A DNA stretch of 64,000 nucleotides from a virus (IMGVR_UViG_3300033146_003848:82141-146140); one strand, 5' to 3'. Positions 34,948-40,796 are shown, counted from the stretch's first letter. Notes: a model not told the origin generated them from the letters alone. Numbers and translations are program-made.

Positions 34948-35220
34948 TTAAATTGTTTCTAAGTCAAATTTAAGTGAAGTAGTGTTTTTTATATATTCAT
35001 AAAATTTATACGACCCTGTTGATAGTAGAGACGATATTAATGATGATGATATTTCAATATTACTTGTATCAATTAAAAACATGAATAATTGATACTCTTC
35101 TGTCTCGGTCAAATCAGTATCAGACTGAGCCAAAATCATGAGGGTTTGGGTAAGTGTGGAATTGATAAAAAGTGATCTGAAGTCTTTTTCTGATACTTTA
35201 CAATCGTTTATAATAATCAT
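34948..35220 (-). CDS. Cassette-array protein A, 90 aa
   Basis: Paralogue of the protein at 37044: both have an SxxLxxTLMxLAxSxTxLxExxEYxLF middle and an end reading SYKFYEYxKxxxxLKFDxxTI. All-helical, no known domain. AGGAAAA serves as ribosome site, as in all array genes. Left-most cassette and the shortest of the pair. Confidence 0.65.
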   Translation of the reverse strand: MIIINDCKVSEKDFRSLFINSTLTQTLMILAQSDTDLTETEEYQLFMFLIDTSNIEISSSLISSLLSTGSYKFYEYIKNTTSLKFDLETI

Positions 35221-35302
35221 TTTCTTTTCCTGTTTTTAAAGTCTCTACTGACTAAAAAATTAATAAGAACACAAACAATTAATATCAATTGTTTATAATA
35301 CT

Positions 35303-35331
35303 AGTATAACACTTAAATGAGACCTTGTCAA
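35303..35331 (-). promoter_or_regulatory. Cassette promoter A
   Basis: - strand TTGACA (35326-35331), 17 nt, TATACT (35303-35308), then the AAACAATT hairpin and AGTCAGTAGAGACT leader before AGGAAAA. Confidence 0.85.
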
Positions 35332-35734
35332 TTCCATTTCAAATTAATTTTATAAAAAAAAAGAAATATACTTACTTCAAATAGTCTCATATTCAATCGA
35401 GATCAAACGATATGGAAAAATGAATAGTAAAGTATATACTTGAAATAAAAAATGATTATTATCAAAACACAATAGGTCTCAATGTTATTTTATTCAATCA
35501 ATACCTTCCCTAATTTATATCGTCCATTTAGGACGGTTCCCAACCATAATAGGTCGTCACTAAAGTAAAATTGAACCTCGATGAGAATTAATGATTCCCA
35601 AATAGGACGGTACAGAGACATTGACCTCGATAGGTCGTCACTAAAGTAAAATTGAACCTCGATGAGAATTAATGATTCCCAAATAGGACGGTACAGAGAC
35701 GATTCGACCTCGATAGGGAATAGTATTATATAAA
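35332..35734. repeat. Cassette spacer with AGGACGGT repeats
   Basis: Contains a block with ATTCAATCGAGATCAAACG (about 35392) also found at 36452, 37687 and 38817, then AGGACGGT at 35530, 35604 and 35685; the last two lie in an 81-bp direct repeat. The long open frame across it is an artefact of the repeat. Confidence 0.75.
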
Positions 35735-35765
35735 AAAAAGTAGTTGCTATTCGCAACTACTTTTT
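35735..35765. terminator. Bidirectional terminator, cassette B
   Basis: AAAAAGTAGTTGC, loop TATTC, GCAACTACTTTTT. Same sequence after the genes of cassettes C, D and E. Confidence 0.9.
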
Positions 35766-35774
35766 ATCAAATAT

Positions 35775-36233
35775 CTAACGCTTCACAAGTTCTGCAATAT
35801 TTTCTAGTTTTGAAAAATGTGACATCTCATCAAAATGTATATTCAATAGTGAGTTTGTGATTAATAAAGCAATCTCTAAAGCATTTTGTTCCAGATCATC
35901 AAAATGATTTAGAATAAAATTTAAATCATCAAAACTTTCATATTCCAATGCTAGTTTTAATTCTTGAATTCGAAATTTAAAATCTCTTTTTCCCAGTTCC
36001 TCTGCTTCGTCGGCAATTCCCGCAACATCAATTATATGAAAAAGAAATATTGCTTTTTCTTCAATTGAATATTCATGTTTTCTTGAGTCAATAAAAGCAA
36101 GCGTAAAATCAAAATCTTTTGTATACTCATCTATAGCATACAGTCTCTCTAATTCAGTATCAAATTGTTTTTCAAAAGCAATGTGAAACAATTCATGATC
36201 AATTTCTTTTCCGAACACATTAATTTTTTTCAT
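35775..36233 (-). CDS. Cassette-array protein B, 152 aa
   Basis: Paralogue of protein E (39343): shared opening N-(V/I)-F-x-x-(D/E)-I-x-x-x-L-F-H, a middle with LFH-x2-D-x2-GI, and an ExAxEY segment about 25 residues later. Helical, acidic, no known domain. ATG at 36233; an upstream in-frame start lies in the leader and is unlikely. Confidence 0.65.
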   Translation of the reverse strand: MKKINVFGKEIDHELFHIAFEKQFDTELERLYAIDEYTKDFDFTLAFIDSRKHEYSIEEKAIFLFHIIDVAGIADEAEELGKRDFKFRIQELKLALEYESFDDLNFILNHFDDLEQNALEIALLITNSLLNIHFDEMSHFSKLENIAELVKR

Positions 36234-36313
36234 GATAATTTTCCTGTTTTTAAAGTCTGTACTGACTAAAAAGTTTAAAAACACAAACAAGCAATATCGA
36301 TTGTTTATAAGTA

Positions 36314-36342
36314 ACTATAACATAAAATAATTCCCGTGTCAA
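36314..36342 (-). promoter_or_regulatory. Cassette promoter B
   Basis: - strand TTGACA (36337-36342), 17 nt, TATAGT (36314-36319); same hairpin and AGTC/GACT leader as in the other cassettes. Confidence 0.85.
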
Positions 36343-36996
36343 TTCTATTTCAAATTATTTTAAATTAAAATTATTTTAAAGTAAAAATATTTTAAAAATA
36401 ATAAAATGATATAATAATAAACAAAATAAACTTACTTCAAATAGTTCCATATTCAATCGAGATCAAACGATATGGAAAAATGAATAGTAAACTATATACT
36501 TAAAAAAAATCAATTATCATAACGAAAAAATAAAATAAAATTTGTCAATTTTATTCATTAAAATTAAAAAAAATAATTATAAATAATTATAAAATCACAA
36601 TAGGCTTCTATATTATTTTATTAGATCGATACCTTCCCTAAATTTATAATTGAATTAAAAAAATGATTCATTTTGTTTCAATAATTATTTAAATCAATTC
36701 ACTAAAGGGAATTTCCATCTTGCATTCGACCGTCCTATTCGGGAATTATATGTTCATATAGGTTTAAATCCATTTAGGACGGTTCCCAACCACGATAGGT
36801 CGTCATTTAAGTAAAATTGAACCTCGATGAGAATTAATGATTCCCAAATAGGACGGTACAGAGACATTGACCTCGATGAGAAATAATGATTCCCAAATAG
36901 GACGGTACAGAGACATTGACCTCGATGAGAAATAATGATTCCCAAATAGGACGGTACAGAGACATTGACCTCGATAGGGAATAATATTATATAAAA
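36343..36996. repeat. Cassette spacer with 49-bp tandem repeat
   Basis: AGGACGGT at 36850, 36899 and 36948 sits in an exact 49-bp tandem repeat; another at 36776 and an inverted ACCGTCCT at 36729. The ATTCAATCGAGATCAAACG block is at about 36452. The stretch 36530-36620 is extremely A/T-rich. No gene. Confidence 0.8.
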
Positions 36997-37025
36997 AAAA
37001 GTAGTTGCTATTCGCAACTACTTTT
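36997..37025. terminator. Bidirectional terminator, cassette C
   Basis: GTAGTTGC / GCAACTAC stem, loop TATTC, with A- and U-runs on both sides. Confidence 0.9.
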
Positions 37026-37043
37026 ATCAAATATCTTTCAAAT

Positions 37044-39291: not shown

Positions 39292-39322
39292 AAAAAGTAG
39301 TTGCTATTCGCAACTACTTTTT
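39292..39322. terminator. Bidirectional terminator, cassette E
   Basis: AAAAAGTAGTTGC, loop TATTC, GCAACTACTTTTT. Confidence 0.9.
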
Positions 39323-39342
39323 GTCAAAATCTTGGAATTATA

Positions 39343-39813
39343 TTATTTTTTTAACATATCTAATCGTTTCAATTCAGATTCGATTTTATCAAACTCATCA
39401 TTCGAAAATTTTCCGTTTCTGATAATATACTCGAGATCGTTTACATAAAAATTGTACTCAACAGCAAGTTCAAAACTATGCATAGTAAAAAAATACTTTT
39501 TTGTTTCAATCATTTTTTCACTCATTTCATCAATTCCATTATTGTCGAGCATATGAAATAACATTTCTTCATTATCTATATCTTTTGATATAGACATTAA
39601 AATAATTATAAACTCGCATTTTTTGGAATACGAAATTCCTTCATAATTATTATCATTTAATTCAAAGATTTTATAAACATCATTATCATATTCTTTAATG
39701 AAAGAATCATGAAACAGTGCATATGGAATATCAATATTAAAGATATTGCACTTTTCACAAACTGTCTCTTTTGTTGTTGTTGTTGTTGTTGTTGTTGTTG
39801 TTGATTTTTTCAT
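39343..39813 (-). CDS. Cassette-array protein E with poly-threonine tract, 156 aa
   Basis: Paralogue of protein B. The start has ten threonines in a row after MKKS, encoded by a uniform ACA run (seen as GTT repeats at 39775-39800), which can gain or lose units by slippage without shifting frame; a CxxC follows. It has the AGTC/GACT leader but no early promoter of its own, so it depends on readthrough from cassette F. Confidence 0.65.
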   Translation of the reverse strand: MKKSTTTTTTTTTTKETVCEKCNIFNIDIPYALFHDSFIKEYDNDVYKIFELNDNNYEGISYSKKCEFIIILMSISKDIDNEEMLFHMLDNNGIDEMSEKMIETKKYFFTMHSFELAVEYNFYVNDLEYIIRNGKFSNDEFDKIESELKRLDMLKK

Positions 39814-39900
39814 GATAATTTTCCTGTTTTTAAAGTCTATACTGACTATTAGTTTTAAAAAGAAACTGTTTTAAACTATTTTAAAACAGTTTAAAAAACA

Positions 39901-39928
39901 ACTTGCAAGACTTTGAAGTCTTGCAAGT
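39901..39928 (-). terminator. Terminator of cassette F
   Basis: Perfect 12-bp stem ACTTGCAAGACT / AGTCTTGCAAGT with a 4-nt loop; on the - strand it is followed by TGTTTTTT. Confidence 0.8.
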
Positions 39929-39935
39929 TTCAAGT

Positions 39936-39960
39936 AATTCTATAGTTGCACTATAGAATT
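39936..39960 (-). terminator. Second hairpin overlapping the stop of gene F
   Basis: AATTCTATAG / CTATAGAATT, 5-nt loop, directly upstream of the terminator in the - strand transcript. Confidence 0.5.
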
Positions 39961-40659
39961 ACTTCGATTAAGCAAGATCATTATGTCGTTTACTCTTGAT
40001 GTTGCATTTTTTCCTTTTCTTATCTTAGTGTATAAGACATTTTTAAGAGTTCGGAACGCAAAAGAATTTGCATTATTTTTCTGATTTTTAGCAAAGTTAT
40101 GAATTATAACAATACTATTTTTCGATAAATTTGCAACTGAAAAAATTCCAGATTCAGAAAGTGTAAATTTCAGATTCATATTGTTTGTTTTTATAATGTC
40201 TTGACTTTCTGCTAAAATTTCACTTTTCATAACTGAAGCAATAAGTATAGTACTTGCATAAACATAATTTAAGCACTTTTCTTTATAATTCAATAAATTT
40301 GCAGTTTTTTCGACTTTAAACTTTTTTCCATTTTGCATCGTGATAACTAATTTTCCAGTGATAAAATCTGAATTATTTTTTATATCATGTTTTGTGCAAA
40401 ATTTTTCCGACATAAAGTACTTTTCAAAATTCTTTACTGCATACAGTGACTTGAAACTTAAATTTTCTAAAAGTTTATATCGTTTTGTAGAATTCAAATT
40501 ATCAAAAAATTGAGAAACTTTTTTCTTTTCAAGTTCAACTTCTTTGATTTTTTCGTCATTTTTTTTTTCAGTTTCTAAATTTGCAAGATAACTTGTTCTT
40601 TCTTTATCTGACAAATTAAGATTAAAATTGTTGTTTGATTTTTCTGTTAAATTTTTCAT
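39940..40659 (-). CDS. Cassette-array protein F, 239 aa
   Basis: Largest protein of the array. N-terminal charged coiled coil (residues 15-55), then a mixed part. The C-terminal third is basic. No family recognised. Codon choice is extremely A/T-rich. Ribosome site AGGAAAA as in the other cassettes. Confidence 0.65.
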   Translation of the reverse strand: MKNLTEKSNNNFNLNLSDKERTSYLANLETEKKNDEKIKEVELEKKKVSQFFDNLNSTKRYKLLENLSFKSLYAVKNFEKYFMSEKFCTKHDIKNNSDFITGKLVITMQNGKKFKVEKTANLLNYKEKCLNYVYASTILIASVMKSEILAESQDIIKTNNMNLKFTLSESGIFSVANLSKNSIVIIHNFAKNQKNNANSFAFRTLKNVLYTKIRKGKNATSRVNDIMILLNRSNSIVQL

Positions 40660-40709
40660 AAAATTTTCCTAATTTTTAAGTCTTATTTTGACTAAAATGT
40701 TTAAAAAAA

Positions 40710-40735
40710 ACTGTATAACGATATTGTTATACAGT
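40710..40735 (-). promoter_or_regulatory. 5' hairpin of cassette F transcript
   Basis: ACTGTATAAC / GTTATACAGT, 10-bp perfect stem near the expected start of the RNA; its sequence differs from the other cassette hairpins. Confidence 0.6.
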
Positions 40736-40767
40736 CAAGTAATTAAAAGAGCGTTGTTTCTTATAAA

Positions 40768-40796
40768 ATAATAGCATATAATTTCCATTTAGTCAA
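40768..40796 (-). promoter_or_regulatory. Cassette promoter F
   Basis: - strand TTGACT (40791-40796), 17 nt, TATTAT (40768-40773). Confidence 0.7.

Follow-up and report, generated by a model that had tools for sequence, protein, structure and literature searches.

Small predicted early genes between conserved promoter and terminator blocks in a T4-superfamily virus: a likely case of cassette shuffling

Promoter-early stem-loops (PeSLs) are genetic elements of small size. They have reportedly been proposed to serve gene shuffling in T4-like phages (by Arbiol et al. 2010 and by Comeau et al. 2014 in Genome Biol Evol). Passages of two reports present PeSLs as shuffling elements of T4-like phages (PMC4503421, PMC3950731), and a passage of the second states that in the haloarchaeal myovirus HGTV-1 promoter and inverted-repeat motifs precede most open reading frames (ORFs) of the left arm. 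In T4, the early counter-defense locus dmd-tifA is tandemly amplified via recombination at microhomologies (PMC9391042), and the morons of lambdoid phages are inserts gained by non-homologous recombination (PMC1524935). The array considered here occupies positions 34948-40796 of a window of 64,000 nucleotides, the whole stretch of DNA that was analyzed, which covers 82141-146140 in a virus record of 146,140 bases (IMGVR_UViG_3300033146_003848). Coordinates are counted within the window unless “record” is stated. It is likely that the array consists of early-gene cassettes and that phage recombination uses their promoter/leader and terminator blocks as homology handles.

The array resembles PeSLs in that it lies in a T4-superfamily phage and repeats an early sigma70-like promoter and a stem-loop among small orphan genes of a variable region; gene shuffling by recombination is proposed for both. 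It differs in that its blocks are 0.55-0.8 kb long and, apart from the terminator, contain tandem repeats and a hairpin at the 5′ end of the transcript, the units run head to tail with paralogous genes, and terminator and promoter are several hundred bases apart. In addition, shuffling is inferred here inside one genome, and not from a pair of relatives. The blocks of the array would work like PeSLs without being confirmed PeSLs. Shuffling by promoter/stem-loop modules is a known idea, of which the blocks of the array would be a longer, iterated form. The module of HGTV-1 is likewise conserved ahead of many different ORFs, with regulation and shuffling proposed for it, but it belongs to an archaeal virus with a TATA-box-like element, and the passage in question does not mention long composite blocks or terminators. 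Recombination at short repeats around an early locus yields tandem copies in T4 as well; the T4 copies, however, are recent and laboratory-selected, whereas the units of the array hold different or anciently diverged genes. As T4 amplifies an early locus at microhomologies, the mechanism would be ordinary for this phage group. Morons are also single ORFs with their own promoter and terminator, but they are non-homologous inserts, while the conserved flanks of the array recur across the genome.

The first-pass annotation had described at least five consecutive units of the same order. The array itself is confirmed, and the sequence bears out blocks that recur on the minus strand and comprise a promoter, a hairpin, the AGTC..GACT leader, the terminator, CCGTCCTA repeats and the ATTCAATCGAGATCAAACG block; the count has to be lowered to three, since only D, C and B show the full order. 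The array has six minus-strand genes; from position 40659 to 34948 these are F, E, D, C, B and A, and four long intergenic blocks lie between E and A:

39940-40659, minus strand: gene F, 239 amino acids, orphan, first gene of the array, with a divergent promoter at 40796-40768
39343-39813, minus strand: gene E, 156 amino acids, paralogue of B, leader and first codons D-like, without its own promoter
38247-38585, minus strand: gene D, 112 amino acids, orphan
37044-37445, minus strand: gene C, 133 amino acids, paralogue of A
35775-36233, minus strand: gene B, 152 amino acids, paralogue of E
34948-35220, minus strand: gene A, 90 amino acids, paralogue of C in shortened form, not followed by a GTAGTTGC terminator
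38586-39342, minus strand: intergenic block E_D, with the shared terminator, an unrelated first half and a second half 82-99% identical to D_C
37446-38246, minus strand: intergenic block D_C, 801 bp, complete composite block
36234-37043, minus strand: intergenic block C_B, 810 bp, complete composite block with a 49-bp repeat in three copies
35221-35774, minus strand: intergenic block B_A, 554 bp, internally deleted, with an 81-bp repeat in two copies
38667-38695 (D), 37525-37553 (C), 36314-36342 (B) and 35303-35331 (A), minus strand: sigma70-like promoters, TTGACA-17-TATAGT in D
38633-38663 (D), with equivalents in C, B and A, minus strand: 5′-terminal transcript hairpin, a few nt after the -10 element
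38201-38231, with equivalents at 36997-37025, 35735-35765 and 39292-39322, minus strand: intrinsic terminator GTAGTTGC-GAATA-GCAACTAC followed by a T run
37685-37703 (upstream of the C promoter), with equivalents at 35391-35409, 36451-36469 and 38816-38834, minus strand: CGTTTGATCTCGATTGAAT block
36816-36975 (49-bp), 35549-35717 (81-bp) and 38006-38160 (73-bp), minus strand: tandem repeats with CCGTCCTATTTGG
39900-39929, minus strand: intrinsic terminator after F, unlike the other terminators of the array
40709-40736, minus strand: stem-loop with an 11-pair stem and T8 in the leader of F, between promoter and gene, terminator-like

Read in the direction of transcription, a complete block consists of terminator, tandem repeats, CGTTTGATCTCGATTGAAT block, promoter, hairpin, AGTC..GACT leader and the AGGAAAA that precedes the ATG. 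The repeat motif CCGTCCTA of the blocks equals AGGACGGT. Promoters A-D (TTGACA-17-TATAGT/TATACT) have a TG before the -10 element and match the consensus at 11 of 12 positions, and are predicted to be strong sigma70-like early promoters of the kind found in PeSLs. The terminators have stems of 12-13 bp, identical at the four sites and followed by T runs, with folding energies of -16 to -18.5 kcal/mol (z of about -7 against shuffles); as in PeSLs, the stem-loop is thus predicted to terminate transcription. The composite of promoter and terminator is not small as in PeSLs, since it measures 554-810 bp, with about 400 to 650 bp from a terminator to the next promoter and the repeats in between. 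In the whole 146 kb record the terminator occurs exactly four times and the 19-mer block four times, all inside the array.

Units D, C and B alone hold the entire set of promoter, 5′ hairpin, leader, gene, GTAGTTGC terminator, CCGTCCTA repeats and upstream block. Unit E retains the leader, the terminator, one CCGTCCT and the downstream block; its promoter is missing, and E is taken to be without one of its own because it comes after the terminator of F. Unit A has promoter, hairpin and leader and lacks the GTAGTTGC terminator and the block after the gene, and its protein is without the last quarter of C. Unit F is only loosely related to the others through its divergent promoter and leader, with a different leader hairpin and a different terminator; the stem-loop in its leader is a possible attenuator.

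On comparison of the sequences, near-identical modules surround genes that are unrelated or anciently diverged, the blocks are mosaic, and homology stops at the edges of the ORFs. Over their whole length, blocks D_C, C_B and B_A are about 84% identical (540-776 aligned bp), E_D is 66-73% identical overall to the other blocks, and the longest exact repeat shared between units is 96 nt. The genes A and C, and B and E, had been called paralogues, which BLASTP upholds (E values of 1e-17 and 6e-13, respectively). A and C are identical in 46% of aligned residues and 61% of nucleotides; for B and E the values are 32% and 53%. Where the paralogues share the same residue, only 43 of 80 codons are identical, which has a binomial probability of 2e-10 if silent divergence matched that of the flanks (p=0.84) and of 0.0016 if the expectation is set at 70%. 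By this measure, the genes are older than the flanks around them. Alignment of the spacers to define the unit borders had been proposed from the outset; once run, it placed the end of similarity at the ORF edges. The last 20 nt before the ATG of B, C, D and E are 100% identical, and inside the genes similarity is 20-60% from 9 nt and at most 50% from 18 nt. At the other end, the aligned stretch of C_B and D_C stops 5-7 nt past the stop codons.

The history of the flanks does not follow that of the genes. E_D is essentially unrelated to the other blocks from alignment column 51 to about 450 (42-62% in windows; 42-55% against D_C), has its closest counterpart in C_B at columns 501-650 (95-96%), and from column 601 onward matches D_C at 95-99%. 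The max-chi-square test with 1000 permutations gave p<=0.001 for most block triplets. D goes with E, and B with C, when the start codons are compared (MKKST in the former pair, MKKI in the latter), and likewise by the bases that immediately precede the terminator; the genes themselves pair B with E and A with C. In gene E, a start of the D type seems to have been joined in frame to a B-type gene. Together, the mosaics and the conflict of groupings are signs of cassette exchange and not of simple duplication.

The promoter, 5′ hairpin and leader are not confined to the array. The promoter family TTGACNNGG..TGTTATANT recurs with its hairpin on both strands from about 90 to 123 kb of the record, the early region. 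Among the 40 most similar promoter-leader pairs (76-100% identity), homologous genes follow only in the pair A/C. On the minus strand, within window 31593-32355, the promoter-leaders that start at 31922 and 32355 (record 114062 and 114495) are 100% identical over 99 nt and precede unrelated small genes, and another pair at 98% identity also has unrelated genes. Two further observations concern this region. Divergent early promoters at window 29990-30080 (minus 30018, plus 30052) are inverted copies, 83% identical over 89 nt. Two Cys-rich proteins with repeated CTDCTNC-like motifs are encoded on opposite strands at window 33748-34101 and 26576-26929, and the DNA of their genes is about 80% alike over 103 nt.

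Under the proposed mechanism, each small gene would be set between conserved promoter/leader and terminator modules, and unequal crossing-over and gene conversion between these modules would swap, duplicate or delete genes. A swapped gene would retain working early expression signals. The host sigma70 polymerase would transcribe each gene early, the 5′ hairpin may protect the transcript, and the terminator would insulate each unit. The genes probably code for early proteins that are dispensable and host-adaptive. The first-pass annotation had suggested gene swapping by recombination at conserved flanks, and within the genome this is supported by the young mosaic flanks, the cut-off at the ORF edges and the conflict between flank and gene groupings. 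Three points weigh against it. No gain, loss or swap of a cassette was actually seen, because no relative was found. Selection could partly keep promoter, leader and terminator alike. Finally, the virus is represented by a single contig with exact repeats up to 96 nt, which leaves some slight room for a local assembly error.

Neither megablast and distant blastn against phages nor tblastn with B, C and a Cys-rich neighbor detected a relative of the array, and B and C had no phage match by tblastn. The same result was obtained in viral-contig scans with C, the sheath, the hairpin, the terminator, the paralogue alignments and the promoter pattern, and in searches of 26 T4-like or promoter-matching records. 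Scanning for the promoter pattern yielded single matches in 59 viral and 23 bacterial cases; those that showed homology to this genome did so only in DNA polymerase and a second protein, with identities of 29-40%. At the sensitivity used, the phage and IMG/VR collections held no close relative of the virus.

The array could also be a dedicated anti-defense island, in which each gene blocks a different host defense. This proposal is tentative, and is compatible with cassette shuffling rather than exclusive of it. Early-type promoters, small orphan proteins and paralogue families are in line with it, and T4 provides a precedent in its early-promoter-driven anti-toxin-antitoxin island (PMC9391042). 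An anti-defense or host-takeover role of A-F, as suggested in the first-pass annotation, is a guess by analogy, plausible in view of the early expression signals and the orphan status of the genes. Set against the island are the lack of a protein match of any kind and structure models of B and C too poor to search. Proteins A-F gave nothing significant against PHROGs, Pfam and PADLOC (a defense, not an anti-defense, library), and the A/C profile, the B/E profile and F found no match among PDB sequences. D and F had been described as unrelated to the other genes, and no convincing relation was found. The predicted structures of B and C reached predicted local distance difference test (pLDDT) values of 46 and 53, too low for a fold search.

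An unlikely alternative is that the flanks are kept alike by selection, acting on regulatory signals, structured RNA or a replication element in the spacer, and not by recombination. The promoter, hairpin and terminator are plausibly functional signals, and the 5′ hairpins are significant at early promoters: at 32 sites of the early region, the 42 nt past the -10 element are more stably folded than their mononucleotide shuffles (mean z -2.6), with no excess of folding at 21 sites elsewhere (mean z +0.06). Within window 9609-40796, on both strands, a hairpin stands at about +1 of most early promoters and is absent at promoter-like sites elsewhere. Since its fold persists while the sequence differs, an RNA function such as 5′-end protection is suggested. 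However, E_D is mostly without the repeat half, and the 49-, 73- and 81-bp repeats vary in number and period between blocks, yet are 97-98% alike internally. Rfam gave no match at E<=1, and the breakpoints are not predicted by selection alone.

If a one-gene unit had simply been duplicated in tandem and the genes had then diverged fast, without exchange of flanks, this would account for two paralogous pairs on one strand at a regular spacing of 1.0-1.2 kb. Such a history is nonetheless quite improbable: codons for identical residues are far more diverged than the adjacent non-coding DNA, the flanks are mosaics with breakpoints, no paralogy of D and F with the others is detectable, and the flank and gene groupings conflict. 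This origin is largely rejected by the test of codon against flank divergence and by the mosaics. An assembly artefact, with repeats or strain variants joined into a false array, is suggested by the IMG/VR-type contig and its exact repeats, but is highly improbable, as the units hold different genes, the flanks differ by about 15% and the module pattern is also spread over both strands of the early region.

The genome behind these cassettes encodes a T4-type DNA polymerase (phrog_262, E=3e-132), a contractile tail sheath (phrog_23, E=3e-73), an SbcC/SbcD-like nuclease (phrog_77, phrog_100), presumably of the gp46/47 type, and a type II topoisomerase (phrog_551). These matches place it in the T4 superfamily, as is the case for PeSL-bearing phages. 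A head-tail adaptor and several homing endonucleases are encoded as well. The best tblastn matches of the polymerase are in cyanophages, and its identity to known relatives does not exceed about 32-35%; the C-terminus of the sheath is about 33% identical to Campylobacter phages; a viral-contig search with the polymerase alignment returned only relatives at about 30-35%. Because these identities are so low, the virus is assigned, on protein similarity, to a deep branch of the T4 superfamily, as a myovirus.

Other features of the record were noted. The tail sheath gene (window 50123-54007) encodes 1294 amino acids, of which only residues 823-1294 resemble known sheaths in the best matches, so that some 800 residues at the N-terminus are extra. 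At window 54070-62255, structural genes are interspersed on both strands with four homing endonuclease genes, all from a single family (phrog_3339). Near the end of the record, an ORF of 563 amino acids (window 62252-63943) contains internal 81-bp repeats at 62688-63284 that are 75-79% alike. Just upstream of the array, at window 41338-41524, there are five 37-bp tandem repeats (CTGATGGATCTCATCCAGGATCCAGGGAATATTTTGG), 97% alike, at the point where minus-strand early genes give way to plus-strand genes. Their core motif has no other occurrence in the record, and they are a possible origin or binding array.

A more far-reaching form of the cassette proposal, which at present is rather doubtful, is that the long blocks are self-homogenized by recurrent gene conversion, so that any ORF between two blocks would be expressed early and insulated. 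If true, this would be a general slot system to swap or amplify counter-host genes, integron-like in effect beyond single PeSLs and without an integrase. The array offers a clear case within one genome of regulatory flanks that appear younger than the genes they serve, as expected under shuffling of early genes at promoter/terminator modules, and it extends the idea of module shuffling to a deep, so far isolated lineage of the T4 superfamily. It also marks a likely site for new host-interaction genes, since the content of relatives between the same blocks should be functionally comparable.

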